From NCBI GenBank assembly GCA_026129905.1, contig JAHCHE010000034.1:1-64000 (forward strand): 64,000 bases of DNA, read 5' to 3'. The notes beneath the pieces are model-generated. The model was not told the origin of the DNA and did no database searches. It saw only the letters and a program-made list of their open reading frames with translations. The translations under genes and the position numbers were made by a program. The stretch's first letter is position 1; every line of letters begins with the position of its first letter. Shown piece after piece: positions 2,866-55,821 of the stretch. Source of the DNA: Bryobacteraceae bacterium. Its GTDB lineage: Bacteria > Acidobacteriota > Terriglobia > Bryobacterales > Bryobacteraceae.

Positions 2866-3621
2866 ATGTTGAATCAACCGACCATCGAGAAACTGCACAC
2901 CATGAAATTGCTCGGCATGGCCGACGCCTTCCGCGAGCAACTGGAAACCGCCGCCATGTGCCAGCTCAGCTTCGAGGAACGCTTTGCCCTGCTCGTCGAT
3001 CAGCAGTGGTTATGGAAGGAAAATCGCGCGCTGGCGCGACGGTTGCGGCAAGCCAGGCTGAAAGAGCGCGGCGTGATCGAAGACGTCGACTATCAGCATC
3101 CGCGCGGCCTGGACCGCAAACTCCTGCGCACTCTAGCGAGCAGCGAATGGGTGCGCCAGAATCAGAACGTTTTGCTGATCGGGCCAACCGGCATCGGCAA
3201 AAGCTGGTTGGCCTGCGCGCTGGCGCAGAAGGCGTGCCGGGATGGCTTCTCGGTGCTGCACAAAAGAACGACCGAGCTGTTTCGTGAACTCGCCGTGGCG
3301 CATGTGGACGGCAGCATCGGGCGAGTACTGCTCAAACTCTCCCGGATCGATGTGCTGCTGCTGGATGACTTCGCCATGGCGCCGTTGAAGGACAGCGAGC
3401 GCCGCGACTTTCTGGAGATCTGCGATGACCGTTATCAGCGCCGCTCGCTGATTCTGACCTCGCAGATGCCGATCGCGCACTGGCACGAACAGATCGGCGA
3501 TCCCACCATCGCCGACAGCATCCTGGATCGGCTGGTTCACAACGCCTATCGCATCGAACTGCAGGGCGAATCCCTGCGCAAGAAGCGCGGCCGGAAACCG
3601 GGCGAGCAGGACAACCAATGA
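2866..3621 (+). CDS. istB: IS21-family helper ATPase IstB
   Basis: This 251-residue AAA+ ATPase selects target DNA and assists IstA. Walker A is GPTGIGKS (about residues 101-108) and Walker B is IDVLLLDDFAM (about 161-171). The N-terminal helical domain starts TIEKLHTMKLLGMADAF, typical of IstB, and length is normal. The start has AAGGAG upstream. The stop overlaps the next gene as ATGA at 3618-3621, so translation of the third gene is probably coupled to istB. Confidence 0.95.
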   Translation: MLNQPTIEKLHTMKLLGMADAFREQLETAAMCQLSFEERFALLVDQQWLWKENRALARRLRQARLKERGVIEDVDYQHPRGLDRKLLRTLASSEWVRQNQNVLLIGPTGIGKSWLACALAQKACRDGFSVLHKRTTELFRELAVAHVDGSIGRVLLKLSRIDVLLLDDFAMAPLKDSERRDFLEICDDRYQRRSLILTSQMPIAHWHEQIGDPTIADSILDRLVHNAYRIELQGESLRKKRGRKPGEQDNQ

Positions 3622-4304
3622 GTGCGGCGCATCGGTTTCAGCTCAAACGGTCTTCGGGTTGGTTCGCCGCCGGCCGCGAAGTCGAGGCGGCGCTGGCGCT
3701 GCTTTCCGATGCGGCGTTCAAGCTGTTTGTCTGGCTCTGCTTGCATGCCGGGCGGAGCTGCGGCTCGATCCGTGCGGGATCGGCCGAACTGGCGAGCGCC
3801 ATCGGCAAAACGGAAGGCGCGATCAGAACCTGTCTCGAAGAACTGTTCCACCACGGCGTGTGCGTGCCGCGCGATTGCGATGTCATCGAGATCACGGATC
3901 GTTTCTGGCCCTACGAACGGGCAAGCCATCCTGGGGCAAGTGATGATCCCTCTGTCTACATTGACCGCGTGAAGCGCTGTTTTCTCCAACGCTGCTGCGT
4001 CCGGAGCGTGTTCACGGCGGCTGACGAGAAACTCGCCGCCCAGCTTCATCGGGATGGGGTTCCCGTCGTCGACGTCGAACGCGCCATTTTACTCGGCTCT
4101 CTCCGCAAGTACGTCGCTCTGGTCAACAACGGACGCGGCGCGCCGATCACCAGCTTGTACTACTTCGTCGCTTTGTTCGCCGAAGTCCGGCAAGAGATCT
4201 CGGTCGGCTACTGGCATTACGTCGCCCAGAAGGTACGCACCTTGGAAGAGAGGTTCCGTCAATCCCCGGCGTTGCTGACGGAGACGAAGGCAGAGACGAA
4301 ATAA
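3618..4304 (+). CDS. IS21 passenger protein with winged-helix-like N-terminus, unknown function
   Basis: This 228-residue protein overlaps istB by ATGA and ends inside the element, before the right inverted repeat, so it moves with the IS. Residues about 28-100 look like a winged-helix domain of the plasmid replication-protein kind (DAAFKLFVWLCLHA, SAELASAIGKTEGAIRTCLE). The C-terminal half is helical with VDVERAILLGSLRKYVALV and GYWHYVAQKVRTLEERF. It may be a DNA-binding regulator or targeting factor. No catalytic motif is visible. Typical IS21 elements carry only istA and istB. The intact frame argues that the gene is kept under selection. Confidence 0.8.
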   Translation: MSAAHRFQLKRSSGWFAAGREVEAALALLSDAAFKLFVWLCLHAGRSCGSIRAGSAELASAIGKTEGAIRTCLEELFHHGVCVPRDCDVIEITDRFWPYERASHPGASDDPSVYIDRVKRCFLQRCCVRSVFTAADEKLAAQLHRDGVPVVDVERAILLGSLRKYVALVNNGRGAPITSLYYFVALFAEVRQEISVGYWHYVAQKVRTLEERFRQSPALLTETKAETK

Positions 4305-4717: not shown

Positions 4718-5908
4718 TCAACCTGCGTCGGAGGACACGCCAGCGGCCGGGACTTCTGCTGTTTCGACCCAGCTCATGAGCGTCTCGGCGACCAGTCTCT
4801 CAAGCCGCCGCTTCCGACCGAGCGTCCACTTCGCGTAATATCGTTCGGTCATCTGGACGCTGGAATGCCCGAGCAGCCGCGAGACGTCTTCCAACGCCAT
4901 GCCGTTGAGCAGCGCACGGACAGCGAACGTATCCCGGAGCCGATGCGGCCGGCAATCGTGGATGCCTTCACTCTTGCCGATCGCCTGCATGATTTTGCCT
5001 ACATTCACCGCAACGCTTCGGACGCCCCAACCGGCCGGGCGGAACGGGAACTCGCGCGAGAGCCAGCAGCATTCGTCGATCGCTTGCTTGAGATCGTCGG
5101 AAATGAACGACTCGACGACCTTCGGCTGAGCCGTACGTTTGTGCTTCTTCTGATGGTGGGGATAGATCCAAAGCATTTCGCCACGTTCCAGCGCCGCCGG
5201 CCGGAACATGATCGCGTCGCTGATCCTCATGCCTGTTTCGAGCATGAGCCGCATCAACAGTTGGAACGTCGCCGGGCTCTTGCTGACAACGGTCCCGTTC
5301 GTGATCTTGAGGGCACCGGCCAGGAGCTTCTCGACATCGGCGTCCGAGAAGGGGTCTTTCTGATCGTAAACGACGCGAAACGGGGCGAGCTTCTCAACAA
5401 TCGGAACCGTGATCCAATCGCGCCGATAGGCGTGACGAAGGAAACAACGCAGTTGCTTGAGGGACGTCGCCTTTGTGGTATCGGCCAGGCCCACCAGACC
5501 TTCGACCTTGTACGTCTCGATCATGTCAACCGTGACGTCCTGAATGTGAAAGACGCCCCGCGTCTCGCTGTACTTCCTGAACCGGGCGAGGATAGTGGCG
5601 TCCTGCGCTTGCGTGTTCTCGCTCCGTTCATGCTGGCGAGACGCCAGGTACTTCTCGACGCATTCGCTTATCGTCGGGCCGTAGACCGCCTTGTCCTTAC
5701 CTTCGGCGATCAGGGACGCCTTGATGGCTTCCGCCGTCTTGAGATCCGTCGTCCCTGTGCTCTGCCTGGGAACAAGTTCATTGTCCGTCCGGCCGTAGAC
5801 CCAGATCGGACACTCGCAACCCATGTACCGCCGCTTCGCCTTCGCCGGGAGCTTCAGCTTATGGACCGCGCATTTCGCCGTGTGGCGCCTGTAGAGTACG
5901 ATTGCCAT
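4718..5908 (-). CDS. Tyrosine recombinase / phage-type integrase
   Basis: This 396-residue site-specific recombinase has the full catalytic set: Arg in LMLETGMRISDA, a Lys in the beta-hairpin region near KKHKRTAQPK, His-x-x-Arg in RPHRLRDTFA, His in LLGHSSVQMT and the nucleophile Tyr in ERYYAKW. A SAM-like core-binding domain precedes it (TISECVEKYLASR to LRCFLRHAYRRDWI). ATG at 5908 is preferred because GGAGG lies at 5917-5921; an in-frame GTG at 5923 has none. A promoter lies directly upstream. I found no tRNA or other phage or island genes beside it, so it may be a remnant of a lost element or a solitary recombinase. Confidence 0.9.
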   Translation of the reverse strand: MAIVLYRRHTAKCAVHKLKLPAKAKRRYMGCECPIWVYGRTDNELVPRQSTGTTDLKTAEAIKASLIAEGKDKAVYGPTISECVEKYLASRQHERSENTQAQDATILARFRKYSETRGVFHIQDVTVDMIETYKVEGLVGLADTTKATSLKQLRCFLRHAYRRDWITVPIVEKLAPFRVVYDQKDPFSDADVEKLLAGALKITNGTVVSKSPATFQLLMRLMLETGMRISDAIMFRPAALERGEMLWIYPHHQKKHKRTAQPKVVESFISDDLKQAIDECCWLSREFPFRPAGWGVRSVAVNVGKIMQAIGKSEGIHDCRPHRLRDTFAVRALLNGMALEDVSRLLGHSSVQMTERYYAKWTLGRKRRLERLVAETLMSWVETAEVPAAGVSSDAG

Positions 5909-5927
5909 GTTCGGAACCTCCACGGCA

Positions 5928-5957
5928 ATTGTACAAACGCCTTGTACGCTAAGTCAA
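5928..5957 (-). promoter_or_regulatory. Sigma-70-like promoter of the recombinase gene
   Basis: On the minus strand TTGACT (5957-5952), an 18-nt spacer and TACAAT (5933-5928) lie 20 nt upstream of the ATG. A TTGTAC direct repeat (5929-5934 and 5942-5947) overlaps the -10 box and the spacer and could be an operator for self-regulation. Confidence 0.55.
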
Positions 5958-6006
5958 GCGGTTCTCCGCAACATATTGATAAAAAAGAAGTAACATAGTA
6001 TATCGC

Positions 6007-9000
6007 TCAGAATATGTACTTCAGCGCAAACTGTAGTTGGCGCATGTTGCCCCGGGTACCGGTGATGCGCCCGAAGGCTGCGCTGGAGACGTTCGCGTCC
6101 GGATTGCCCCAGTTCGGGTGGTTCGGGAAGTTGAACGCCTCGAACCGGAACTGCAGCTTGTGCGGATTGTCCGCCAGGCTGAACAGTTCGAAGTCCTTCA
6201 GCACAGAGAAGTCCCAGCCGATGATGCCGGGGCTGGTCAGCGTGTTGCGGCCGACGTTGCCGTGCGTGCCTCGCGGCTGCAGAACAAACGCCGACGTGTC
6301 GAAGAAGCGCTGCGGGTCCTGCTGACCGCGCGGAAGCGCGGCATTACTTCCGGTCGAATTGGGCCGGTCGAAGAACGCTCCCGTAACCGACTGGTCCACG
6401 CCCGAGGCCATGGTAATGGGGAAGCCGGTTTGCAGCGTCAGGATGGAACCGACTTGCCAACCGCCGGCGATCAGGTCCGCCGCGCGGTTCTGGATGTGGT
6501 ACTTGCGGCCCCGGCCGAAAGGCATGTCCCACAGCGCCGAGGTGACAAAGCGATGGCGCACGTCGTGGCTGGACCGCGCGCGCTCGCAGCTCCGGCAATA
6601 GCTGTTCTGCGGGAACAGCGTGTCGCCGCCCTGGTTGCGAATCGCCGTGGCCGTATCGATCGACTTGGACCACGTGTAGCTGAACAGGTAGGTCATGCCG
6701 TTGGAGTAGCGCTTGGTCAGTTTCGTTCCCAGCGAGTTGTAGTTGCCGCTTCCGCCGTTGTCGACAAGCTGAATACGGCCGAAGTTGGGGAACGGCGAGC
6801 GCATCGGAATGTTGGGCTCCGAGGGCATCTGCGAAAGCGGGATGGTCTCGTTGACGGCCCGAAGCGACTCGAGCCGGTGGCTGACACTGCCCAGGTAGCC
6901 GATCTCAAGTACCGTATTCTGGGGCAGCTCCCGCTGAATGTTCATCAGGTACTGAATTGTGTACGGAGTTCGGCGGTCGTACGGATTCGCGAACGTGTAG
7001 GGCCGCGGCACCTGGACCGTGGCGCCGGCCAGGCCCGCAAGCCCGTTTTCCCACGTCTTGTCGGGAATCACCGTGCTGGAATTGTCGCGGAAACGGCCGG
7101 CGAGGTTGCGCGCCATGTCAAATCGCGGATTACCCGTGTCCTGCGAGTAGAAAACACCAGCGCCCGTGCGGAATACCCACTTCGACGTCGGCGCCCACGT
7201 CAAGCCTAATCGGGGAGCGATGTCGTTCCTGTCAACGCCCACCAGCCGGTTGCCGAGGCTGCCGTCCTGCCGGACTTCAATGAAGGGCCAGCGCAGCGGG
7301 ATGCCGGCGTACGGATCGTTGGAGGGATCGCCCTGGCGCATGAAGAACGGATAGTTGCCCATTGCGCTCGCCGGAGCGTTGGGGTTGGGTACAATCTGGT
7401 TGTTCGGTCCCAGCATGAAGGCGCCGCCTACGTTGGCGCCGCGCAGATCGTCCCGGACGATACCGTTGAACAGCCTGCCGGTCTGGTCCTCCCACGGAGG
7501 CGTCAACTCATACCGCAGCCCCCAGTTCAGCGTGAACTTCGGCGTCACCTTCCAGACGTCGTCCACGTAGAGGGCAAAGCCCGTGGCGCGGAACTGCGCC
7601 GTCGCAATCGCCGCTGCCGCCTCCGGCTGGTACACTTCGCCCAGCAGGTAGTCCGCAAACGCGTCGCCCGTTACGCCGGAGCGCGCCGGGTTATTGGTGG
7701 CGTTGCGCTGGAATGTGAAGGAGCCGCGGGCGAACTGGTTGCCAACCTGGTTGTAGTTGTCGCGGCGCGCTTCGCCACCGAATTTGAGCGAGTGCTTGCC
7801 GCGCACCCACGAGAAGTTGTTGATGAACTGGATGGCGCTGTTGTCGTTCTCGTAGGGGCCTTCCGAATCGTTGCCGAAACCGCTATACGTGCCGGAAAAG
7901 CCGACCGATGGAATTCCCCACTGCACCGGCGGCCCGCCCGGAAGTCCCGGTATGCCCAGCTCGCCAACCACGTCGCGGCTGAATGCCAGCTCGGTCCCGG
8001 CCGAATTGTAGAATTTCGTGTAGCCGAAGCGAGCCTCATTCACCATTGTGGGGGAGAACACGCGGGTGTTCGATACCATCCACTGCTTGGTCTGGGTGAT
8101 GATCGCCGTTCCGTTGAGCCGGAGGGCTTCGTTCTGCTCGACCTCATCCCCCCACGTGTAGCGTCCCGACCAGTTCGAACTCGCGGACTCGATGAAGTCG
8201 AACCTCTGGATGAACTGGTCGCGGTCGATTGGACGCCCCTGGCCAATCACGTGGTTGTTCCGCAACTGCGGATTCGGCAGGTTCGGCGCCGGGAAGAACT
8301 CCAGCAGGCTCGCGGAAACGGGATGGATCCGCGACGCGGGAATCGTGTTGCCGGGGAACATCTCGGCCGACGCAACCGCGCCGCCCTGGACCACCCTCGT
8401 CAACGGGTCGTAGATGCCCTGGGTCCCCAACGGCAGCTCGCTGAAGTTGCCGCTTCGCATGGCGGTGCTGGGCAGGCTGAAGACCGACTGCACCTGGCGC
8501 CGCTGCCGGAACCACTCGTAGTTGCTCATGAAGAACAGCCGGTTGCGGCCGTCGAACAGCTTCGGAATGCGGACCGGTCCTCCGAGGACGAAGCCGAACT
8601 GGTTCCACTTGAAGGGATCCTTCGGCGGCCGGGCGGAGGTGAAAGCGTAATTCTTGGCGTCGAACCGGTCGTTGCGCAGAAACTCGAATACCGCGCCGTG
8701 GAATTCATTGGAGCCGCTTTTGGTCGAAACGTTGATCTGCGTCACGCCTCGCCCGAACTCCGCCGGGTAGACGCCGGATTGCACCTTGAATTCCTGTAAT
8801 GCGTCGATCGACGGCCGGACCACGTAAGAGTTGAAGTTCGGGTCGGTGTTCTCGACGCCATCCAGCGTAAAGCGGTTGAAGTTGCTGCGCTGGCCGGCGA
8901 CGGAGATATTCTGCTGGGAGCGCTCGCCGCCCTGCCGCGAACCGGCTTGCCCCGCGCTGGGAAAGCCGAAGCTCACGTTAGGCGCCAGCGCCACCAATTG

Positions 9001-9450
9001 GAGGTAGTTGCGCCCGTTGATCGGCAGTTCGACGATCCGTTTATTCTCGATCACCGTTCCCACTGTCGCGTTCTCGCTCGACAGCAGCGCCGCCTGGGCC
9101 GACACTTCGATCGTCTCGGTCACCTGCCCGATTGCCATCTCGATGTCGATGCGCGCGCTCTGCTGCACCTGCAGCTCGATGTTCGACCGAGCGAACGTCT
9201 TGAAGCCTGCTTTCTCCGCTCGCAGCGTGTAGGTCCCCGGCGGCAGCGCCGGAAAAACGTACACGCCCGCGGCGTTGCTGACCGTGTTCCGGGTGGCATT
9301 CGTGGCGACATTCGTCACGCTGACGTTCACCGCCGGAACGACCGCTCCGGATTCGTCCAGCACGGTCCCTGTGATTTCCCCGAAGGTCTGGCCGAAAGCG
9401 GCCAGCCCGAAGAGCATGCACCAGACGGCGCACCCCACTATGCGTTTCAT
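6007..9450 (-). CDS. Oar-like TonB-dependent receptor with carboxypeptidase-regulatory-like domain
   Basis: This outer-membrane protein of about 1147 residues starts with a signal peptide (MKRIVGCAVWCMLFGLAAFG). A CarboxypepD_reg-like domain (EITGTVLDESGAVVPAVNVS to about residue 105) follows, then a plug domain (VIENKRIVELPINGRNY, AEFGRGVTQINVSTKSG) and a long barrel ending LQFALKYIF with the terminal aromatic residue expected of barrels. Such receptors are abundant in acidobacteria and are thought to import large or polymeric substrates. No substrate can be assigned. ATG 9450 with GGGG ahead is preferred over TTG 9465. A weak candidate promoter (TTGCAG 9520-9515, TAACAT 9499-9494, 15-nt spacer) lies upstream. 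Confidence 0.92.
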   Translation of the reverse strand: MKRIVGCAVWCMLFGLAAFGQTFGEITGTVLDESGAVVPAVNVSVTNVATNATRNTVSNAAGVYVFPALPPGTYTLRAEKAGFKTFARSNIELQVQQSARIDIEMAIGQVTETIEVSAQAALLSSENATVGTVIENKRIVELPINGRNYLQLVALAPNVSFGFPSAGQAGSRQGGERSQQNISVAGQRSNFNRFTLDGVENTDPNFNSYVVRPSIDALQEFKVQSGVYPAEFGRGVTQINVSTKSGSNEFHGAVFEFLRNDRFDAKNYAFTSARPPKDPFKWNQFGFVLGGPVRIPKLFDGRNRLFFMSNYEWFRQRRQVQSVFSLPSTAMRSGNFSELPLGTQGIYDPLTRVVQGGAVASAEMFPGNTIPASRIHPVSASLLEFFPAPNLPNPQLRNNHVIGQGRPIDRDQFIQRFDFIESASSNWSGRYTWGDEVEQNEALRLNGTAIITQTKQWMVSNTRVFSPTMVNEARFGYTKFYNSAGTELAFSRDVVGELGIPGLPGGPPVQWGIPSVGFSGTYSGFGNDSEGPYENDNSAIQFINNFSWVRGKHSLKFGGEARRDNYNQVGNQFARGSFTFQRNATNNPARSGVTGDAFADYLLGEVYQPEAAAAIATAQFRATGFALYVDDVWKVTPKFTLNWGLRYELTPPWEDQTGRLFNGIVRDDLRGANVGGAFMLGPNNQIVPNPNAPASAMGNYPFFMRQGDPSNDPYAGIPLRWPFIEVRQDGSLGNRLVGVDRNDIAPRLGLTWAPTSKWVFRTGAGVFYSQDTGNPRFDMARNLAGRFRDNSSTVIPDKTWENGLAGLAGATVQVPRPYTFANPYDRRTPYTIQYLMNIQRELPQNTVLEIGYLGSVSHRLESLRAVNETIPLSQMPSEPNIPMRSPFPNFGRIQLVDNGGSGNYNSLGTKLTKRYSNGMTYLFSYTWSKSIDTATAIRNQGGDTLFPQNSYCRSCERARSSHDVRHRFVTSALWDMPFGRGRKYHIQNRAADLIAGGWQVGSILTLQTGFPITMASGVDQSVTGAFFDRPNSTGSNAALPRGQQDPQRFFDTSAFVLQPRGTHGNVGRNTLTSPGIIGWDFSVLKDFELFSLADNPHKLQFRFEAFNFPNHPNWGNPDANVSSAAFGRITGTRGNMRQLQFALKYIF

Positions 9451-47320: not shown

Positions 47321-48796
47321 ATGACAAAAGTGTGTGTTTTCGCGGCAGCCGCGTTGGCGGGCGCGCTGTGGCCCATCTCCATTTCAGGCTGCGATACGTG
47401 GGTCGCGCTGCCGGACGCCACGGCGGATGGATCGGTGATCCTGGCGAAGAACAGCGACCGGCCGCCGATGGAGGCGCAGCCGCTGGTGCAGATGCCGGCC
47501 AGGCGACACAAGCCCGGTGAAACGGTGAAGTGCACCTATATTGAGGTCCCGCAGGCGGCGGAGACGTACGAGCACCTCGGGTCGAAGATCTGGTGGGCGT
47601 TCGGCTACGAGCACGGCATGAACGAGCACGGCGTGGCCATCGGGAACGAGGCCGTGTGGTCGAAGGAGCCGTACCAGTGGGGCGACGGGCTGCTGGGGAT
47701 GGACCTGGTCCGGCTTGGGCTGGAGCGCGGCAAGACGGCCCACGAGGCGCTGCGGGTGATCACGGCGCTGCTGGAGAAATACGGCCAGAGCGGCGATGCC
47801 GAGCATGAAGGGGAGTGGGGCAAGGCGAATTACCACAACAGCTTTCTGATCGCGGATCCGAAGGAGGCGTGGGTGCTGGAAACCGCCGGCCGGTACTGGG
47901 TGGCCAAGAGGGTCAAGCATGGCGTGTACTCGATATCGAATATTTACTCGATCGAGCGGGAGTGGGACGAGGCGCATCCGAAGCTGGTGGAGCACGCGAT
48001 CGAGATGGGCTGGACGAAGTCGGCCGAGCAGTTCAATTTCGCGCGCGATTACGGCGATTACTGGACGAAAGGCTCGAAGGACCCCGGCAGCATGCAGATC
48101 CGCCGGAACATGACGCTGAGCTGCCTGCGGAAGGATTTCTCGCGTATCACGCCCGAAAGCATGATGGCAATCAACCGCAGCCACCTGGAAGGGACGATCG
48201 CCGAGCCGCGGTGGGGAGCGTCGGAGCCGTTCTGGGCGACGCCGTGCATGCACGACACGGCGCGGTCCGGCTACCACAGCGCCGCGTCGGTGGTGGCGCA
48301 CCTGCGGGCGGACAAGCCTCCGCTGCTGCGGCAGGTCTACTGGGCGGGCTTTTCGAATCCCTGCTCGAATCTCTTCAAGCCGTTCTACCTGCACGGGGTG
48401 AAGGCGCCGGTCACCTACGCGAGCGGAACCAGTACCTATTCCGAGGACTCGCCGTGGTGGTTGGCCAACCGGGTGAAGCTGCTCACGGACCTGAATCACC
48501 GGTCGCTCGGGCCGGCGGTGCGGGCGGTGTTCGACGGGACCGAGCGCTGGCAACGAGAGCGGCAGCAAACGGTGGAAGCCGAGGCCCTGCGCCTGCTCGA
48601 GGCGGGTAATAAGGATGAGGCGGCGCGGCGATTGCAGCAGTTCGTCGACGAAAATGTCCGGCGCGCGGACCGCGAATACCGGATGCTAAACGAGACGCTG
48701 CCCCGGATGCTGGCGACGGTGGGCATTGAATACCTGTACCGGGATTATGTGCGGGACTGGACTTCAAAAGCGAAAGTGCCGCTTCCGTTGGAGTGA
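47321..48796 (+). CDS. C69-family dipeptidase (secernin/PepD-like)
   Basis: This protein of about 491 residues has a short signal peptide ending before GCDTWVALPDATADGSVILA and KNSDRP. The Cys is the expected N-terminal nucleophile exposed after cleavage, typical of Ntn-hydrolase C69 peptidases and secernins. Further signatures are GYEHGMNEHGVAIGNEAVWS, LLGMDLVRLGLERG and NYHNSFLIADPKEAWVLETA. It likely cleaves dipeptides outside the cytoplasmic membrane. ATG 47321 with AAGGTG ahead is preferred over the in-frame GTG 47309. Confidence 0.88.
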   Translation: MTKVCVFAAAALAGALWPISISGCDTWVALPDATADGSVILAKNSDRPPMEAQPLVQMPARRHKPGETVKCTYIEVPQAAETYEHLGSKIWWAFGYEHGMNEHGVAIGNEAVWSKEPYQWGDGLLGMDLVRLGLERGKTAHEALRVITALLEKYGQSGDAEHEGEWGKANYHNSFLIADPKEAWVLETAGRYWVAKRVKHGVYSISNIYSIEREWDEAHPKLVEHAIEMGWTKSAEQFNFARDYGDYWTKGSKDPGSMQIRRNMTLSCLRKDFSRITPESMMAINRSHLEGTIAEPRWGASEPFWATPCMHDTARSGYHSAASVVAHLRADKPPLLRQVYWAGFSNPCSNLFKPFYLHGVKAPVTYASGTSTYSEDSPWWLANRVKLLTDLNHRSLGPAVRAVFDGTERWQRERQQTVEAEALRLLEAGNKDEAARRLQQFVDENVRRADREYRMLNETLPRMLATVGIEYLYRDYVRDWTSKAKVPLPLE

Positions 48797-48828
48797 CAGC
48801 GCGCGGAATTCGTGAGAGACTTGAGTCC

Positions 48829-49974
48829 ATGACAAAGCCGAGCCGCCGCGGTCTGTTGCGATGCGTAGCTTCCGCGGGGGCCGGAACCGCCGTCGCGGCG
48901 ACGCTCCGGAGCGCCTTGGCGGCGATGCCGGCCTCGGCGGCGACGATGCGCATCAGCCGGTTCGAGGTTTTCCCGACGAAAATACCGATGTACGAGCCGG
49001 TGCGCGAGGCCTGGGAGGAGAGCTATCGGCGGCAGGACCGCTTCCAGACGCATTACGCGCCGACCATGGTGAGGCTGCACACCGATGAAGGTCTCACCGG
49101 CATCGGAAGCGCGGGTATGCCGAAAGGCGAGCGGCTGGACGCGATCCTCAAGCGCGTGACGGGGCGTTCACCATGGGAGTTTGTTCTCGACGACAGCCTC
49201 GGCGGCGTGCTGGTGGCGGTCTACGACCTGTTGGGAAAAGCGGCGGGGTTGCCGGTCTGCCGCCTGTTTTCCAGCAACCCGAAGCCGCGGGTTGTACAGA
49301 CCTGGTGGAGTCACTGCTGGCCCCCAGAACTGATGGCCGCCGAGGCCAAGCGCGGCGAACGCCTCGGCTACAAGGTCCACAAGGTGAAGGCGCGCCCGTG
49401 GCAGGACCCGATCGAGCAGGCCGAGGCGATCTGCGACGCGGTTTCGAAAGATTTTCGCGTCTGGGTGGACGCCAACGCGTGGTGGGGCTCGATCGGGCGG
49501 ACGCAGTTTTTTGCGGAGAAGCTGACGAATTACCGCAACTATTTCGCGATTGAGTCGCCGATTCGTCGGGATATCGAAGGATATCGACAGCTTAAAGGCA
49601 CGGTGGCGTTCCAGTTGGCGGAGCACATGCCGGCCGATCCGATGCCGTTTATCCGGGAAGGGCTGGTGGATGCCTTCGTCATCGGCGGTCCGATCGGCCG
49701 CGGGCTGATGCAGCGCGCGCTGATGGCCGAGGTGACGGGCGTGCCGCTATGGGTGGAGCACAGCATCGACGACGGGGCGAACCAGGTTTTTCAGGCGCAC
49801 CAGGCCGCGGCGTTGCCCGGCATCGAGTATACGATCAGCATCACCCACGTTCTGGAGAACGACCTGGTGAAGGAGCCGTTCACGATGAGGGACGGCTACT
49901 GGGACACGCCGAACAAACCGGGGCTTGGCGTCACGCTCGACGACGAGGCCGTCGATCGCTACCGGTCCGCGTGA
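48829..49974 (+). CDS. Tat-exported enolase-superfamily protein (mandelate racemase/MLE-like), copy A
   Basis: This 381-residue protein has a Tat signal (KPSRRGLLRCVASAGAGTAV). A capping domain follows, then the barrel with a KxK pair at 185/187 (KVHKVKARPW), metal ligands Asp 214 (VWVDANAWW) and Glu 242 (AIESPIRR), then LAEHM and WVEHSIDDG. The arrangement fits the muconate lactonizing enzyme/mandelate racemase branch, which removes a proton next to a carboxylate in sugar acids. Export is unusual for the superfamily. Its 3' end (from 49888) is duplicated at 54550-54636. A convergent relative lies at 54658. Confidence 0.85.
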   Translation: MTKPSRRGLLRCVASAGAGTAVAATLRSALAAMPASAATMRISRFEVFPTKIPMYEPVREAWEESYRRQDRFQTHYAPTMVRLHTDEGLTGIGSAGMPKGERLDAILKRVTGRSPWEFVLDDSLGGVLVAVYDLLGKAAGLPVCRLFSSNPKPRVVQTWWSHCWPPELMAAEAKRGERLGYKVHKVKARPWQDPIEQAEAICDAVSKDFRVWVDANAWWGSIGRTQFFAEKLTNYRNYFAIESPIRRDIEGYRQLKGTVAFQLAEHMPADPMPFIREGLVDAFVIGGPIGRGLMQRALMAEVTGVPLWVEHSIDDGANQVFQAHQAAALPGIEYTISITHVLENDLVKEPFTMRDGYWDTPNKPGLGVTLDDEAVDRYRSA

Positions 49975-50125
49975 AACGCGCGCGGGCGCCGCGTTTCAGC
50001 TCTGGAAGCGGTACTTGCGGACCGCGTCTTCGTCAAGTTCCACGCCGAGGCCGGGACGATCCGGCGCGAGCGCGTAGCTGTTCCGGATCTCGATCGGTTC
50101 GACAATCAGATCGTCTTCGCGCAGG
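49888..50125. repeat. 238-bp direct repeat, left copy (enolase-gene junction)
   Basis: It contains the last 29 codons of enolase-gene copy A, the gap, and the last 43 or so codons of a convergent relative. It is repeated at 54550-54787 without any gap; I count about 24 substitutions, roughly 90% identity, many at third codon positions. Confidence 0.88.
49996..50125 (-). pseudogene. 3' fragment of an enolase-superfamily gene (copy B type)
   Basis: The minus-strand frame ends with LREDDLIVEPIEIRNSY, then APDRPGLGVELDEDAVRKYR, almost identical to the C-terminus of the complete gene at 54658. Similarity stops at 50125, exactly where the 30-bp repeat begins. The frame stays open upstream to 50415 but has no family similarity there. 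Only about the last 43 residues remain. Confidence 0.82.
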
Positions 50126-50154
50126 GTTTTCTGTTCCGTTGCTCCCCAATACCC
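50125..50154. repeat. Exact 30-bp direct repeat, left copy (insert boundary)
   Basis: It starts GGTTTTCTGTTCC and ends CCCCAATACCC, and is identical over 30 bp to 54520-54549. The two copies bound a 4365-bp segment. On this side it directly follows the truncated copy-B fragment. Confidence 0.9.
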
Positions 50155-50225
50155 TATACTGACCAGATACGCGAAGCAAACGCACGAGGCATCGGCTGCT
50201 TCAGAGCGTAGGGGGTGTAACCGCT

Positions 50226-51638
50226 GTGTCCCGAATTGTCGTGTCTTGTCTAGCAACAATTGCGTGCTCCGCTTTTGCCGCGGAGTCTCAGAACTGGTCG
50301 CGGTTTCGAGGCCCAATGGGATCGGGTGTAGCCTCGGCGACCGGGCTCCCGGAGCAATTAAGCATAGAACGCACACTGCTCTGGAAAATCGCGGTGCCCC
50401 CCGGCAAATCGTCACCTGTCATTTCGGGCGACCGGCTGTTCCTAACCGGTTGGCGCGGCGACCTGCGACTCGTCCTCTGCGTTGACCGGAGGACGGGCAA
50501 GCTTGTATGGGAACGTGCGGTCAACCGAAGACATTCGCAAACAATGAACAAGCTGAACGACCCGGCAGCGCCCAGCCCGGCAGTGGATGGAACGAACGTA
50601 TACGCATTCTTCCCCGAGTCTGGGATCGTGTCCTATGACCGAACGGGTAAGGAGCGGTGGCATGTGTCTCTGGGTCCGTTCAGCAGTGTGCATGGAATCG
50701 GAGCTTCGCCTATCGTGGCGAGCGGGGTTGTGGTTCTTGCGATCGAGCAGCAGTCCGGTGGATCTTTCCTGACGGGCTGGGATGCGACGCGGGGTTCGGT
50801 TCGGTGGAAGACGGCACTCGCCGACGTTGGACAGCAGGGATACGGCACACCCTTTGTGCATGCTCCCGGTAACGGAGCACCGCAGATCGTTTATTCCAGA
50901 CCGGGAGAGATCGGCGGCTGGTCACTTGCCACTGGAGAAGCGCTGTGGTGGATTCGAGGCACGGGCACTCAGACCTATTCAACACCAGCCGTCGCTGATG
51001 GTGTAGTGTATGCCGCAGCGGATGGAGACACCGTGGAAGGCGCGATGAAGGCTTGGGAGCAATTTCTGCAAAAGTGGAATCGCACTCCTGAGCGCAGTCT
51101 ACGCGTGAAGGAAGACTGGCATGACGATACGCTTGCACGCGCTGACCGGACCTTCGGCAACAACGATGGAATGCTGGACGAAAATGAGTGGCGCATTCTG
51201 GTGCGGAACAACCGGCCGAGATCTCTGACGGCTGTCCGGCTCGGAGGCAAGGGCGAAGTGACCGACAGTCACGTATTGTGGCAAACGACACGAGCGATTC
51301 CGGCTGTCTCGAGCCCGGTCGCTTTTCAGAATCTGCTCTTCTACATCCGGGATGGGGGAATCTTCACTTCGCTGGATGCATCCACCGGAAAAGTGCTGAA
51401 AGAAGCCCGACTGGAAGGAGCGATCGAGAAATTTTTTGCTTCCCTAGTTGCCGGTGACCACAAAATCTATGTCGCGAGTGAGCAGGGCAAGGTGATTGTC
51501 ATCCGAGCGGCGGCCGATTGGGAGGTGCTCTCTGTGCAAGATCTCGGAGAGGAGATTTATGCCACGCCGGCTGTTAGCGATGACGGCCGCATCTATATAA
51601 GGACTTCAAAGGCGATGTACTGCTTCGAGCGGCGCTGA
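50226..51638 (+). CDS. PQQ-type beta-propeller protein with an EF-hand-like loop
   Basis: This 470-residue secreted protein has a signal peptide (about 1-18). Repeated propeller strands follow: GDRLFLTGWRGDLRLVLCVD, RRTGKLVWERAV, AVDGTNVYAFFPESGIVSYD, GWSLATGEALWWI, AVADGVVYAAADGD, SDDGRIYIRTSKAMYCFE. In the middle, FGNNDGMLDENEW fits an EF-hand calcium loop. The opening NWSRFRGPMGSGVA is typical of PQQ-like proteins in acidobacteria and planctomycetes. True PQQ binding is not shown. The gene starts at GTG, lies inside the 30-bp-repeat-bounded insert, and its third positions are less GC-rich than the surroundings, suggesting transfer. Confidence 0.85.
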   Translation: MSRIVVSCLATIACSAFAAESQNWSRFRGPMGSGVASATGLPEQLSIERTLLWKIAVPPGKSSPVISGDRLFLTGWRGDLRLVLCVDRRTGKLVWERAVNRRHSQTMNKLNDPAAPSPAVDGTNVYAFFPESGIVSYDRTGKERWHVSLGPFSSVHGIGASPIVASGVVVLAIEQQSGGSFLTGWDATRGSVRWKTALADVGQQGYGTPFVHAPGNGAPQIVYSRPGEIGGWSLATGEALWWIRGTGTQTYSTPAVADGVVYAAADGDTVEGAMKAWEQFLQKWNRTPERSLRVKEDWHDDTLARADRTFGNNDGMLDENEWRILVRNNRPRSLTAVRLGGKGEVTDSHVLWQTTRAIPAVSSPVAFQNLLFYIRDGGIFTSLDASTGKVLKEARLEGAIEKFFASLVAGDHKIYVASEQGKVIVIRAAADWEVLSVQDLGEEIYATPAVSDDGRIYIRTSKAMYCFERR

Positions 51639-51814
51639 TCAGCGTGCTGCTCAATGAAAGTCGGCGTAGCAGTTTTATACCGTTGGACTGTTCAAATAGA
51701 GCCGCAGCTTTCAAGAGCCGGACGCGACCACTGAAATTTGGCATACGGTGACTTGTGAAACTGCGCGCGGTCGGTGACCTCCGAGCCCTTAACGTATACT
51801 TTTTTCGTATCTAT

Positions 51815-52699
51815 TTACCGCGTGAAATGGCCGTGTAGCCGTTGCCTGGCATCGCGGACCAGAGGATAGACATAGATGTCTTTGACGGCCTGACCGTGAG
51901 CTTGATGCTCTCGGTCCATCCGGCCGCGCCCAGCCGTCTGTCCGACATGAATCCAGTTGGCTGCGCGGTAACAGGTTCCACGAAAGCGGGTCGGGTCCAC
52001 TAATGTCTCCAACAAGACCGGCCGCTGCCCATATCGGGTTTCCCAGTCGCGGGGCATTTGCCGGGCACTCAGGGCGAGGATCTTGCTCGCCAGTCCTTTG
52101 ACGTGCACCGACGGCAGGATGAGAAACCGGCCGTTATTGACGATCCCTTGCAGGTTACGTTGCCGTTGCTGGTCGCTCCAGCCGATCCAGGCGTCGCGGG
52201 CCTGCATCTTCCAGGCGGGCGAGGTCCACAGCAGACAAGCCAAGTCTCGATGGTGACTCCGCACCCAGTAACGCAGGCTGGCGCCGAACGGCACGCGGCA
52301 TCCCAGATAGTGGTACCGTTCCACATGTTGGCGCCAGCGCCGGCTCTCAGCTTGGCCATCCACCAGAACCAACTCCAGCGGCTCACACTCGCTCACCGCG
52401 CCTTCGATCAGGGTGGGTTCGGAACAGGGTCTGGAGACATCAGGCCGCCGCGGACCTCTGCCTCCTCGCTGCCGCAGTGGCGGAAGCGTCAGCAGTCCCT
52501 CGGCGGCCAGGCGCTCCAGCAGTTGCCGGCACTCGTGGTTCTTCAACCCTCCACTGGGCCGTTTCCAGTCCAGCAACTCGCAGAGAGTACGCGCGATTTC
52601 GGTGACGCCGAGGGCGGAAAACTCCCGCGCGGTCTGGCGCATCAACTCCAGTTCGGAGGCGCCGAACGTGCGTCCGCAAAAGGTCAGAGATTCGGGCAT
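51815..52699 (-). CDS. DUF4338 protein (DruA-like), partner of the IS66-type transposase
   Basis: This protein of about 294 residues starts PESLTFCGRTFGASELELMR. It has LGVTEIARTLCELLDWKRPS and LVLVDGQAESRRWRQHVERY, then HYLGCRVPFGASLRYWVRS, NNGRFLILPSVHVKGLASKI, ILALSARQMPRDWETRYG, VLLETLVDPTRFRGTCYRAA and WIHVGQTAGRG. This is the DUF4338 family named from DruA of the Druantia anti-phage system. It begins 20 bp after the transposase stop and probably belongs to the element rather than to a defence island; no druB-E genes are nearby. Its molecular function is unknown to me. Confidence 0.82.
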   Translation of the reverse strand: MPESLTFCGRTFGASELELMRQTAREFSALGVTEIARTLCELLDWKRPSGGLKNHECRQLLERLAAEGLLTLPPLRQRGGRGPRRPDVSRPCSEPTLIEGAVSECEPLELVLVDGQAESRRWRQHVERYHYLGCRVPFGASLRYWVRSHHRDLACLLWTSPAWKMQARDAWIGWSDQQRQRNLQGIVNNGRFLILPSVHVKGLASKILALSARQMPRDWETRYGQRPVLLETLVDPTRFRGTCYRAANWIHVGQTAGRGRMDREHQAHGQAVKDIYVYPLVRDARQRLHGHFTR

Positions 52700-52719
52700 G
52701 TCATGGCGGGGGGCGCGGG

Positions 52720-54161
52720 TCAGCCCGCGCCGGGCACAATGTCCAGGATCACGGTACGCGGCGCACGCAACAGCCTCACGCAGCGCGGGAAAGCGTCCTT
52801 GCCCTGCTGCCAGCAGGTGCGCAACACGCTCACCAGGATTTGTTGCGTGCGCGCGCCTTCCCAGGTCCGATTCCCGCCCCACACCTTCCGCGCAATCACC
52901 ATCCACCGGATGGCCCGCTCCGCCTCATGGTTGGTCGCATCCAAACCCGGACAGTGGAGAAAGGTGAACAGATAGGGCTGTTCGTGTTCCAGATGGTGTG
53001 CCAGGCGGCGATTCGCCGGATGCCGGTAGGATTTCTCCAACAGCCGGTCCAGTTGCGCCTCCAGCCGTCCGGTGGCGCTGTGCAGGCCATGCTCGGAGAT
53101 CTCGCCTTCCCCGTAGCGGTCCCGCAACTGCAAACTGGCCTGCAGCAGATCTTTCACCGCCAACGGAAAAGCGGCCGCCGCCGGCGAGGCGATGCGTGCC
53201 ATCTCTTTGCACCGGGTCAGCAGATGACGCAGACAGCTCTGATGGAATGCCTTCCGGAAACGATAGTAGGGCGCCCATCCGTCATGCACCAGAAACCCCG
53301 CGTACGCTGCCCCCAGAATCACCACCGATTGGTCGTACCCGCGCCCGGGCAGAATGGCATACACGGTGGCCCGCTCGCTTACGGCCACATGCATCCATTG
53401 CAGGTGTCCCCCTACCTTCCAGCCGGTTTCGTCGGGCACGTTCACCACCGCTTGCCGCGTGGCTTGAACCAGCCCGTCGTAGGTCGGCGTCGCTCGCCGC
53501 GCCATTCGGGCCAGCGCCCGATACAGTCCGCCACAACTGACTTCCAGCCCGAAGCCAGCGGCGAGTACTTGCCGCGTATGCCCCAACGAGAGCCCCATCT
53601 GTTTGTTGAGAATCGCCGCCAGCGCCAACGCCTCGGGCCCCAGTTGGACCGCGCCCACGCCCACGGCAGCGGAGGTCTGCAACCGATGTCGCCCTTGCAC
53701 CCGGCGGCCACAACCGCGGCAGCAGCCCACCGCGATGTCAAAGCGGCGCACCACGGTCCGCCGTACAATCTCTTCCTGATATTGCGGTTCGCTGCGCTGA
53801 AACTCGACCCCACCTCCGCAACGGGGACAGTGTTGCGGCAGCCCAACGCGGATCGTCTCATCGACCCGCGACGGTGTCGGGCGCGGCAGGCGTGCTTGCC
53901 GTAGTCCTGGCCTGGTTTGCGGCCGGGACGCTTCGGACTGTCCTTGGGTTTGCCCCGGGAATGCGGTGCGGCTTGGCGCTTGCCGGCCCGCAGGGCAGCT
54001 TCCAACTCTTTGCGAAGCCGCTCATTTTCCTGCTGGAGACGTTCAATCTCCCGCTGCTGTCGTTCAATCTGTTGTCGGGCCCGGTCCAACTCTTGGGCGC
54101 GAACGAACTCAATCGGATCGGGCTGCCTTCTGCGCTCCCGCTGGTCTCCAGAGGCTCTCAT
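52720..54161 (-). pseudogene. IS66-family transposase, frameshifted
   Basis: The 5' part (from about 54161) encodes a coiled coil (DRARQQIERQQREIERLQQE) and the PKRPGRKPGQDYGKHA linker usual in IS66 transposases. Near 53880 the frame changes: similarity continues in another frame with VDETIRVGLPQHCPRCGGG, a zinc-finger region and VVRRFDIAVGCCRGCGRRVQ. The catalytic domain follows, with DETGWKVGG, VHDGWAPYY and NHEAERAIRWMVIARKVWGG (a DDE-type set). No slippery heptamer is visible at the junction, so this looks like a mutation rather than programmed frameshifting. The 3' end is intact and the DUF4338 gene follows. Confidence 0.8.
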
Positions 54162-54519
54162 CCACTCTACGGTAACGTCCAGCCCTATTTTGCGATGGCC
54201 CTTTCTATTGGGTTCCAACGCGGTAAACAAATACCTTTTTTCCTTTTGGTGCCGGGTGGCCTTGCCGATGGTTGCTGGAGTGCTCAGGTCAATTACGGTG
54301 GCCCACAGGACGCAGGATTTGACTTCGAACTCGCAGCGGTGGTCGTTACGCAGGCGGTACACGAAAGCTGGCTGGGGTGGGTCCAAAGCGTCAAGAACAC
54401 CGGGTTGTTCCCGCCGGTACAGCTGCCCACCTCCCCCCATGTCCTCGGCGAGAGCTTCCAATTGGTTCACAGGGCGGCTCTATAGCGGAACCACACCAAT
54501 CGAGGCACGACCTTATACC
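54162..54519. other. Region upstream of the transposase, unassigned
   Basis: The transposase frame stays open upstream to 54470 but this 103-codon extension has no similarity I recognise. The right half of the candidate inverted repeat is at 54474-54483. No other gene is apparent up to the 30-bp repeat. Confidence 0.4.
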
Positions 54520-54549
54520 GGTTTTCTGTTCCGTTGCTCCCCAATACCC
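54520..54549. repeat. Exact 30-bp direct repeat, right copy (insert boundary)
   Basis: It is identical to 50125-50154 and directly precedes the second copy of the 238-bp enolase-gene junction. Perfect identity contrasts with the 10% divergence of the 238-bp copies. Confidence 0.9.
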
Positions 54550-54636
54550 AGGGACGGCTACTGGGAAGCGCCAAACAAACCGGGGCTGGGCGTCACGCTC
54601 GACGATGAGGCCGTTGAGCGCTATCGGTCTGCGTAG
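54550..54636 (+). pseudogene. 3' fragment of an enolase-superfamily gene (copy A type)
   Basis: The plus-strand frame reads RDGYWEAPNKPGLGVTLDDE and ends AVERYRSA, matching the last 29 codons of the complete gene at 48829-49974. Similarity stops at 54550, at the 30-bp repeat. Only the tail is left. Confidence 0.8.
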
Positions 54637-54787
54637 AACGCCAGCGGGCGCCGCGTTCTAACTCTGGAAACGGTACTTGCGGACCGCGTCTTCGTCCAGT
54701 TCCACGCCCAGGCCGGGCCGGTCCGGCGCGTGCGCGTAGCTGTTCCGGATCTCGATCGGTTCCACTATCAGATCGTCTTCGCGCAGG
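54550..54787. repeat. 238-bp direct repeat, right copy (enolase-gene junction)
   Basis: It is the counterpart of 49888-50125. Here the copy-B gene is complete and copy A is truncated, the mirror of the left side. Confidence 0.88.
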
Positions 54788-55821
54788 AAGCTGAGGATAT
54801 CGCTGGGCAGCGTGCAGTTGGGCGACGCGGCGCAGGAGTGGAGATAGGACGCGTCCACGATGCCGCAGTCGTTGCCGGAACCGTGCCAAACCGGCATGCC
54901 CGCCGCGCCCGCCATGTACGAGTTCGCCACGAAACTCGCCATCCCAGGATTGCCGCCGGTGTTGAGGACGGAACAGGCGTCCTCGCGAATGGCGCGGATC
55001 ATTGCCTTCGGGTCGCCCAGGTGGAGCGCGACGTGTCCGGAAACCTCCTTCCGGAGGCGGCGATAACCTTCGTAGTCGCTCTTGTCGAACGGGTCTTCGT
55101 AAACCAGAACGTTGCCGACCTTGTCGAGCGCCTTGGCGACGGGCAGAAAATCGGCGTAGCTTTTGTAGCGGGTGTTGGGGTCGACGATCACTTTCAGGCC
55201 GGGCGCCGTTTTGGCAATGATCTCCACCGCCTCGACGATGGGGTCGCCCTGCTTGTTCTTAGTCTTGATGGAGGTGAAGCCGCCAGCCACCGCCCGTTCG
55301 GCCACTTTCTTCATTCCGGCGGGCGTGCGGCGGCCGGTCCAGTACCCTACGAGCACCTTGGGCTGCGCTAGGCCGCCAAGCAGCTTGTACACGGGCCAGC
55401 CGAGCGCCTTGCCGACGATGTCGTACAACGCCATTTCGAAAGCCGTATAGCCAGCGCGGGCAGGCAGATTGAGGTCCGTAAGGCTGAAATCGAGGACGTT
55501 CTTCCCCCGCAGGTGTTCGGCGTTTCGTTGCACGGCGGCGAAGTCCTCGCCCCGGCCGGTCTCGCCGATGCCGGCGATGCCGGAGTCGGTGTGGACCTTA
55601 AGGATGGTTTTCGGGACAAGATCGAAACGGCTGGATTCGGCGGTCTCGGGGTCGGTGGTGGAGTCCTCCTTCATCGGGACTACTACCTGGGAGAGGTCGA
55701 CGCGGGTAATTAACAGCCGCTCTTTCTTTCCGGCGGCGCAACCGGGAATCGTCGCGAGACCCGCGATCCCGCCGGAGGCGGCCGCGAGCAGGCCGCGACG
55801 GGTTGGTTTGATGAGTGCCAT
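54658..55821 (-). CDS. Tat-exported enolase-superfamily protein (mandelate racemase/MLE-like), copy B
   Basis: This 387-residue protein has a signal with a twin arginine and a possible lipobox (KPTRRGLLAAASGGIAGLAT then IPGC). The capping domain has FDLVPKTILKVHTDSGIAGI. The barrel has KxK at 186/188 (SIKTKNK), Asp 214 (VIVDPNTR), Glu 242 (VYEDPF) and LHLGD as the probable third metal ligand. Substrate is unknown. It is diverged from copy A outside the common fold but ends with a similar PGLGVELDEDAVRKY motif. Its last 43 codons are duplicated at 49996-50125. Confidence 0.87.
   Translation of the reverse strand: MALIKPTRRGLLAAASGGIAGLATIPGCAAGKKERLLITRVDLSQVVVPMKEDSTTDPETAESSRFDLVPKTILKVHTDSGIAGIGETGRGEDFAAVQRNAEHLRGKNVLDFSLTDLNLPARAGYTAFEMALYDIVGKALGWPVYKLLGGLAQPKVLVGYWTGRRTPAGMKKVAERAVAGGFTSIKTKNKQGDPIVEAVEIIAKTAPGLKVIVDPNTRYKSYADFLPVAKALDKVGNVLVYEDPFDKSDYEGYRRLRKEVSGHVALHLGDPKAMIRAIREDACSVLNTGGNPGMASFVANSYMAGAAGMPVWHGSGNDCGIVDASYLHSCAASPNCTLPSDILSFLREDDLIVEPIEIRNSYAHAPDRPGLGVELDEDAVRKYRFQS

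Follow-up and report, generated by a model that had tools for sequence, protein, structure and literature searches.

An insert between diverged gene-junction copies in a Bryobacteraceae genome, bounded by Tn3-type repeats: a probable remnant of transposition

The window analysed here is a stretch of 64,000 nucleotides (positions 1 to 64,000 of contig JAHCHE010000034.1) from a Bryobacteraceae bacterium. It contains an insert that is bounded by two identical copies of a 30-bp sequence, R, and lies between two diverged copies, C and C′, of the junction of two convergent genes, A and B. Judged by its sequence and its neighbours in other genomes, R belongs to a 38-bp terminal repeat of the Tn3 transposon family and makes up its outer part. 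The insert is probably a transposase-less remnant of Tn3-family transposition, i.e. a rearranged scar of known mobile elements. The contig that contains the window is 83,854 bp long and comes from an assembly totalling 8.57 Mb (71 contigs, completeness 98.2%, contamination 4.38%).

C (49888-50125) and C′ (54550-54787) are a direct repeat of 238 nt that aligns without gaps at 90% identity, with 24 differences over 237 aligned positions. The copies of R (50125-50154 and 54520-54549) are a direct repeat of 30 nt at 100% identity, and base 50125 belongs to both the C and the R alignments. By simple arithmetic, an exact repeat of 30 nt is expected by chance on the order of 1e-9 times in 64 kb. On the left side A is whole and B is reduced to its last 42 codons and stop, ending before the left R. 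On the right side B is whole and a second A (A′) is reduced to its last 28 codons and stop, beginning after the right R. Both genes belong to the enolase superfamily. The period from R to R is 4,395 bp, or ~1,959 bp without an IS66-family element nested in the insert and one copy of its 8-bp target duplication. An earlier note, made from the letters of this DNA, had described the order C-R-insert-R-C′ with about 24 differences between ungapped C and C′, identical copies of R and complementary truncations of A and B. All of this was recovered here, the layout by repeat search; the nested IS66-family element was missing from that description.

Identity and distribution of the repeat

Allowing up to 3 mismatches, R occurs twice in the whole genome, both times on the same (+) strand, and a dispersed repeat within this genome is thereby ruled out. 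Among relatives it is dispersed, being found in 9 of 400 genomes (this one included), and a control search with the pattern read backwards returned 0. The earlier note had held that a common dispersed repeat would tell against its reading; the dispersal is thus found between genomes and not within this one. The places comprise 2 in the genome itself and 16 in eight other genomes, nine of these in G234 alone, and a separate search added a 17th (contig C251 of G061). When these places are aligned, conservation continues past R on one side only and the outer flanks differ. The conserved block runs to 38 bp at the right R and ends at 30 bp at the left R. With the right copy of the window itself as reference, the 38-mer carries 0-7 mismatches in the 17 places of relatives (exact in G202, 3-7 at the remaining 16) and ends in TAAG in 15 of them. 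A further match, in L063, has 14 mismatches and was taken as chance. Read inward, the 38-mer begins with GGG in most copies, and the form GGG...TAAG is one that we take to mark Tn3-family terminal repeats. The length agrees with the 38 bp given for the terminal repeat of this family in PMC4133298.

The neighbours of the repeat in relatives point the same way. An 862-aa frame ending beside it in G066 (L077) is a Tn3 transposase (DDE_Tnp_Tn3, E 1.5e-148), 60-64% identical to the best Tn3 transposases of a plasmid collection among the matches listed. After the repeat in G067 (L076) come a resolvase and a Tn3 transposase with DUF4158 (DDE_Tnp_Tn3, E 1e-57), and after that in G234 (L067) a resolvase identified with Pfam. 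In the plasmid collection, 31 records matched 80% or more of the repeat's length (E up to 1). On a Sphingomonas plasmid the repeat is 84% identical and stands inverted at both ends of a ~4.2-kb element. This element is annotated with a Tn3 transposase and a recombinase and has the 5-bp target duplication AATCC. Small cassettes also occur between such ends. One of 1,043 bp in G161 (L131), too short for a Tn3 transposase, lies between inverted diverged repeats with a 5-bp target duplication, GGCGC; another of 927 bp in the same genome (L136) lies between inverted Tn3-type repeats with a five-base match that is offset by one base. A repeat pair ~0.2 kb apart in G273 (L121) has no target duplication, and no partner repeat was seen within the stretch examined at L144, L146, L127, L130 and L120, the last two being the same place.

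These observations bear on the suggestion of the earlier note that R is a long target-site duplication or the recombination site of an integrating element. The copies of R are identical and do bound the insert, as such an element would have it. However, R is part of a Tn3-family end found beside Tn3 genes, the right copy extends to 38 bp, and no site-specific recombinase domain was present among the four insert proteins scanned. Moreover, the readable target duplication of the related elements is 5 bp, which argues against R as a long one. We regard this suggestion as having almost no chance of being correct. The insert is no integrative element bounded by R, and neither excision at R nor autonomous movement is expected.

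The repeat is most numerous in G234, where nine copies (L062-L069) were found. Five stand beside tnpA- or tnpR-like frames, of which only that at L067 was checked with Pfam, and at another three the contig ends within 119 bp. The copy at 2443 of L064 has 15 kb on its inner side without a partner repeat. The copies in G234 probably represent a multi-copy Tn3 element that broke the assembly.

Age of the junction copies and of the truncations

Over the coding tails of C and C′ (stop codons included) there are 22 differences, 18 of them at third codon positions, giving rough estimates of dN 0.026 and dS 0.345 (dN/dS ~0.07) across ~70 codons. The amino-acid differences were compared with outgroups. 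At residue 371 of A the amino acid of the truncated copy is found in 10 of 19 outgroups and that of intact A in 1 of 19; at residue 388 the counts are 14 and 5 of 19. Both copies lack the valine that is common at residue 372, though the truncated one keeps its first base. The sole amino-acid difference in the B tail is a leucine in the truncated copy against a histidine in intact B, at a site that is hydrophobic in 11 of 11 outgroups.

On this comparison, the truncated tails are without decay and purifying selection is still visible in them. Drift would be expected in a tail that was severed long ago. As these have not drifted, the codons indicate that selection acted until recently on two complete A-B pairs, whether of this genome or of a donor. 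The codon-level comparison would thus date the truncations as recent although the copies C and C′ are old, and the truncations may belong to the same series of events as the insertion. The earlier note had proposed an old A-B duplication, later reduced, and then a recent insertion. The old divergence of the pairs and the recent insertion agree with our data, whereas a reduction that preceded the insertion is not supported, since both truncated tails bear the mark of purifying selection.

The uninterrupted A-B junction that the earlier note proposed to look for was sought in relatives and was not found. Homologues of A occur in at least 56 and those of B in at least 95 of 151 genomes (E 0.001), many of the matches being short or weak. 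B was not next to A in the A loci L006-L024, compared over ~1.5 kb beside A or up to the contig end. On contig C106 of G056 homologues of the two lie ~1.1 kb apart on the same strand. A wider contig scan with A gave 9 loci at 54-63% identity, none from a close relative.

Origin of the insert and comparison with known systems

The two edges of the insert differ in kind. At the right, the tip of a complete 38-bp repeat directly adjoins C′, and this is a junction of the kind made by a Tn3 transposase. The left junction is not of that kind. The repeat there has the same orientation, so that its tip at 50154 points into the insert instead of towards the chromosome. A Tn3-family transposase, acting in trans or since lost, would have put the right end against A′, either by simple insertion or by deletion of adjacent DNA. 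On the left, the boundary falls 30 bp inside the second repeat and overlaps C by at most 1 base, from which we infer illegitimate joining; a deletion there would have removed the rest of the second repeat's element together with the 5′ part of B.

Several points weigh against a Tn3 origin of this kind. A weight matrix built from 18 repeats, the right copy among them, was run over the whole 83,854-bp contig and only the left and right repeats scored above 12 bits. With no inverted partner, the 5-bp duplication cannot be checked and an ordinary insertion is unproved. A Tn3 element, moreover, does not ordinarily have two repeats in the same orientation. No Tn3 transposase domain (PF01526) was found in this assembly by a search that was positive in 2 of 14 control genomes. 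The coding tails on which the dating depends are short, and their dN and dS correspondingly rough. Finally, neither an uninterrupted nor a convergent A-B junction was found among the relatives compared, none of which is of the same genus, and the order of events is therefore only inferred.

The second A-B pair need not have arisen in this genome. It may have arrived as DNA of a related species with the Tn3 end already in its A′, entering through homology on the B′ side and an illegitimate join on the left, at 50125; we hold this to be possible, with the balance somewhat against it, and it is compatible with a Tn3 remnant as set out above. A dS of ~0.34 between C and C′ with both tails in frame is as expected of two separately selected lineages, and there is no second close copy of A or B in the genome. 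Homology on one side with a non-homologous junction on the other would also give the layout in one event. However, the genomes searched included none of the same genus that could show the donor haplotype, and a second copy of the repeat would still be needed in the donor to account for the left R. An assembly or binning chimera of two related species would likewise explain the resemblance of C and C′ to alleles of two species, and the assembly does have 71 contigs and 4.38% contamination. Yet C and R overlap by no more than 1 base at the left junction, a 30-bp R is short for an assembly overlap, and the right junction is sensible as a transposon end, so we consider a chimera very unlikely.

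One-ended (rolling) transposition from the complete repeat is a further route, in which a small circle would have been copied once plus 30 bp to give R-donor-R. The locus has one complete tip and a second end within the same repeat in the same orientation, and the period of 4,395 bp, once the IS66-family element and a single copy of its target duplication are subtracted, would be that of the donor. One-ended transposition predicts a short, identical target duplication; the repeat flanking this insert is instead 237 bp long and 10% diverged, and a donor circle of 1.96 kb seems improbable. We therefore think this route unlikely. If it could be demonstrated at solo Tn3 ends of this sort, it would be a natural example of a process known mainly from laboratory assays. 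Both this route and the many solo Tn3-family repeats are discussed in PMC4133298, and for IS801 PMC3189936 suggests that most truncated fragments stem from rearrangement and not from one-ended transposition.

Set beside known systems, the locus is a fragment. Tn3-family transposons have a transposase and a resolvase, terminal repeats of ~38 bp and a 5-bp target duplication. The locus shares the 38-bp GGG...TAAG repeat, which flanks tnpA/tnpR in relatives and in diverged form bounds the complete plasmid element. Unlike these transposons, it lacks transposase and resolvase, has one complete and one truncated repeat in the same orientation and shows no readable target duplication. It resembles TIME and TIME-COMP elements, as described in PMC4133298 and PMC13367494, in having passenger DNA beside Tn3-type 38-bp repeats without a transposase, and TIME-COMPs with directly oriented TIMEs are on record. 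However, there is no complete TIME on either side of the insert. The left repeat has 30 bp with its tip inward, so that the passenger does not lie between two Tn3 repeats whose tips both point outward.

The explanation of a Tn3 remnant is instructive but ordinary, and no new integration system appears to be involved. Where an insert is edged by a long exact repeat, the repeat can pass for an attachment site and yet be a partial transposon end. The analysis also puts on record, in genomes related to this one, a Tn3-family terminal repeat and small passenger cassettes that go with it.

Contents of the insert and duplications beside other repeats

Features of the locus, with coordinates in the window
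Feature	Coordinates	Strand	Remarks
Gene A, whole	48793..49974	+	Enolase superfamily (MR_MLE_C), 393 aa
C: A tail, spacer, B tail (B truncated)	49888..50124	.	Repeat search and codon comparison
Left R: outer 30 of 38 bp of Tn3-family terminal repeat	50125..50154	-	Inner 8 bp absent
PQQ_2/BamB-like beta-propeller gene	50226..51638	+	470 aa; GC at third codon positions (GC3) 0.62
8-bp target duplication CTTTTTTC, left copy	51799..51806	.	
IS66-family element	51807..54234	-	2,428 bp; ends GTATCTATTTACC / GGTAAACAAATAC; nested in older insert
DruA-family (PF14236) frame	51815..52906	-	363 aa listed; ~294 aa from inner methionine
IS66 transposase gene	52720..54234	-	Split over two frames
8-bp target duplication CTTTTTTC, right copy	54235..54242	.	
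Gene remnant (C-terminal stretch)	54243..54485	+	72% DNA identity over 164 bp to open frame in G176
Complete 38-bp Tn3-family terminal repeat	54512..54549	-	Includes right R (54520-54549)
C′: tail of second A (truncated at 54550), spacer, B tail	54550..54787	.	
Gene B, whole	54658..55821	-	Enolase superfamily (MR_MLE_C + MR_MLE_N), 387 aa

Over half of the insert is the IS66-family element, whose ends were set by its inverted ends and by comparison with relatives. It is like other members of the IS66 family in its DDE_Tnp_IS66 domain (E 1.2e-27), terminal inverted repeats and 8-bp target duplication, and unlike them in carrying a DruA-family gene and, in this copy, a broken transposase frame. 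The DruA-family frame matches PF14236 (E 1.6e-45) and reaches only 18.6 bits with the PADLOC DruA model. It is therefore not called a Druantia system, whose partner genes were not searched for. Some part of 51640-54549 was matched in 58 of 300 genomes (this one included), and the near-full element with its DruA-family gene in four relatives (G037, G197 and G031, 76%; G023, 64%). The homologue in G197 has an 8-bp duplication, GTGCGGTG; the right end of that in G037 was not recognised. The IS66 transposase lies in one frame of 492 aa in G037 and of 509 aa in G030. The longest frame in G197 has 437 aa, so that this copy may be broken too and the broken frame is not peculiar to the window. No paper combining DUF4338 and IS66 was found in the literature searched. 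The IS66-family element with its DruA-family gene was inserted later than the surrounding DNA, by ordinary transposition.

Without this element the insert is ~2 kb long and consists of the beta-propeller gene and the 3′ remnant of another gene. GC3 of the beta-propeller gene, 0.62, is lower than the 0.82-0.83 of A and B, and matches to it were found in 90 of 151 genomes (E 0.001), the best at ~40-44% identity. The open frame in G176 that resembles the remnant has no Pfam match. The DNA between the gene-junction copies is probably foreign. A role of R in an outward promoter that would serve the beta-propeller gene was considered and rejected, there being no sigma-70-like site in 50000-50300.

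A duplication close to a repeat was also seen at L072 (G075:C111:25000-42000), which carries a solo Tn3-type repeat. From 92 bp past the tip, its outer flank (8828-9041) is put together as a mosaic from three pieces, 96, 90 and 31 bp long, which match a gene ~3 kb inside (source 5636-6420) at 95-97% identity. The pieces abut, and at the source they are spaced by 151 and 417 bp. By sequence, the mosaic looks like the product of template switching. Of the 6 loci that extend 5 kb or more on the inner side of the repeat, two (the window and L072) have a close duplication starting within 100 bp of the tip, L074 has weaker matches more than 1 kb out and three have none; these are too few for a conclusion. 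A control of 375 random positions gave 7 matches, 3 at these two repeat loci and 4 at one duplication further on this contig. That solo Tn3 ends in this bacterial order repeatedly drive one-ended or template-switching rearrangements, which would leave a duplicated, patchy copy of nearby DNA next to a single repeat, with the window and L072 as two cases, is a speculative idea to which we give little weight. Just past the window, L078 (G000:C28:64001-83854) holds a direct duplication, ~3487-3978 and 6292-6785, whose copies lie ~2.8 kb apart and are 93-98% identical.

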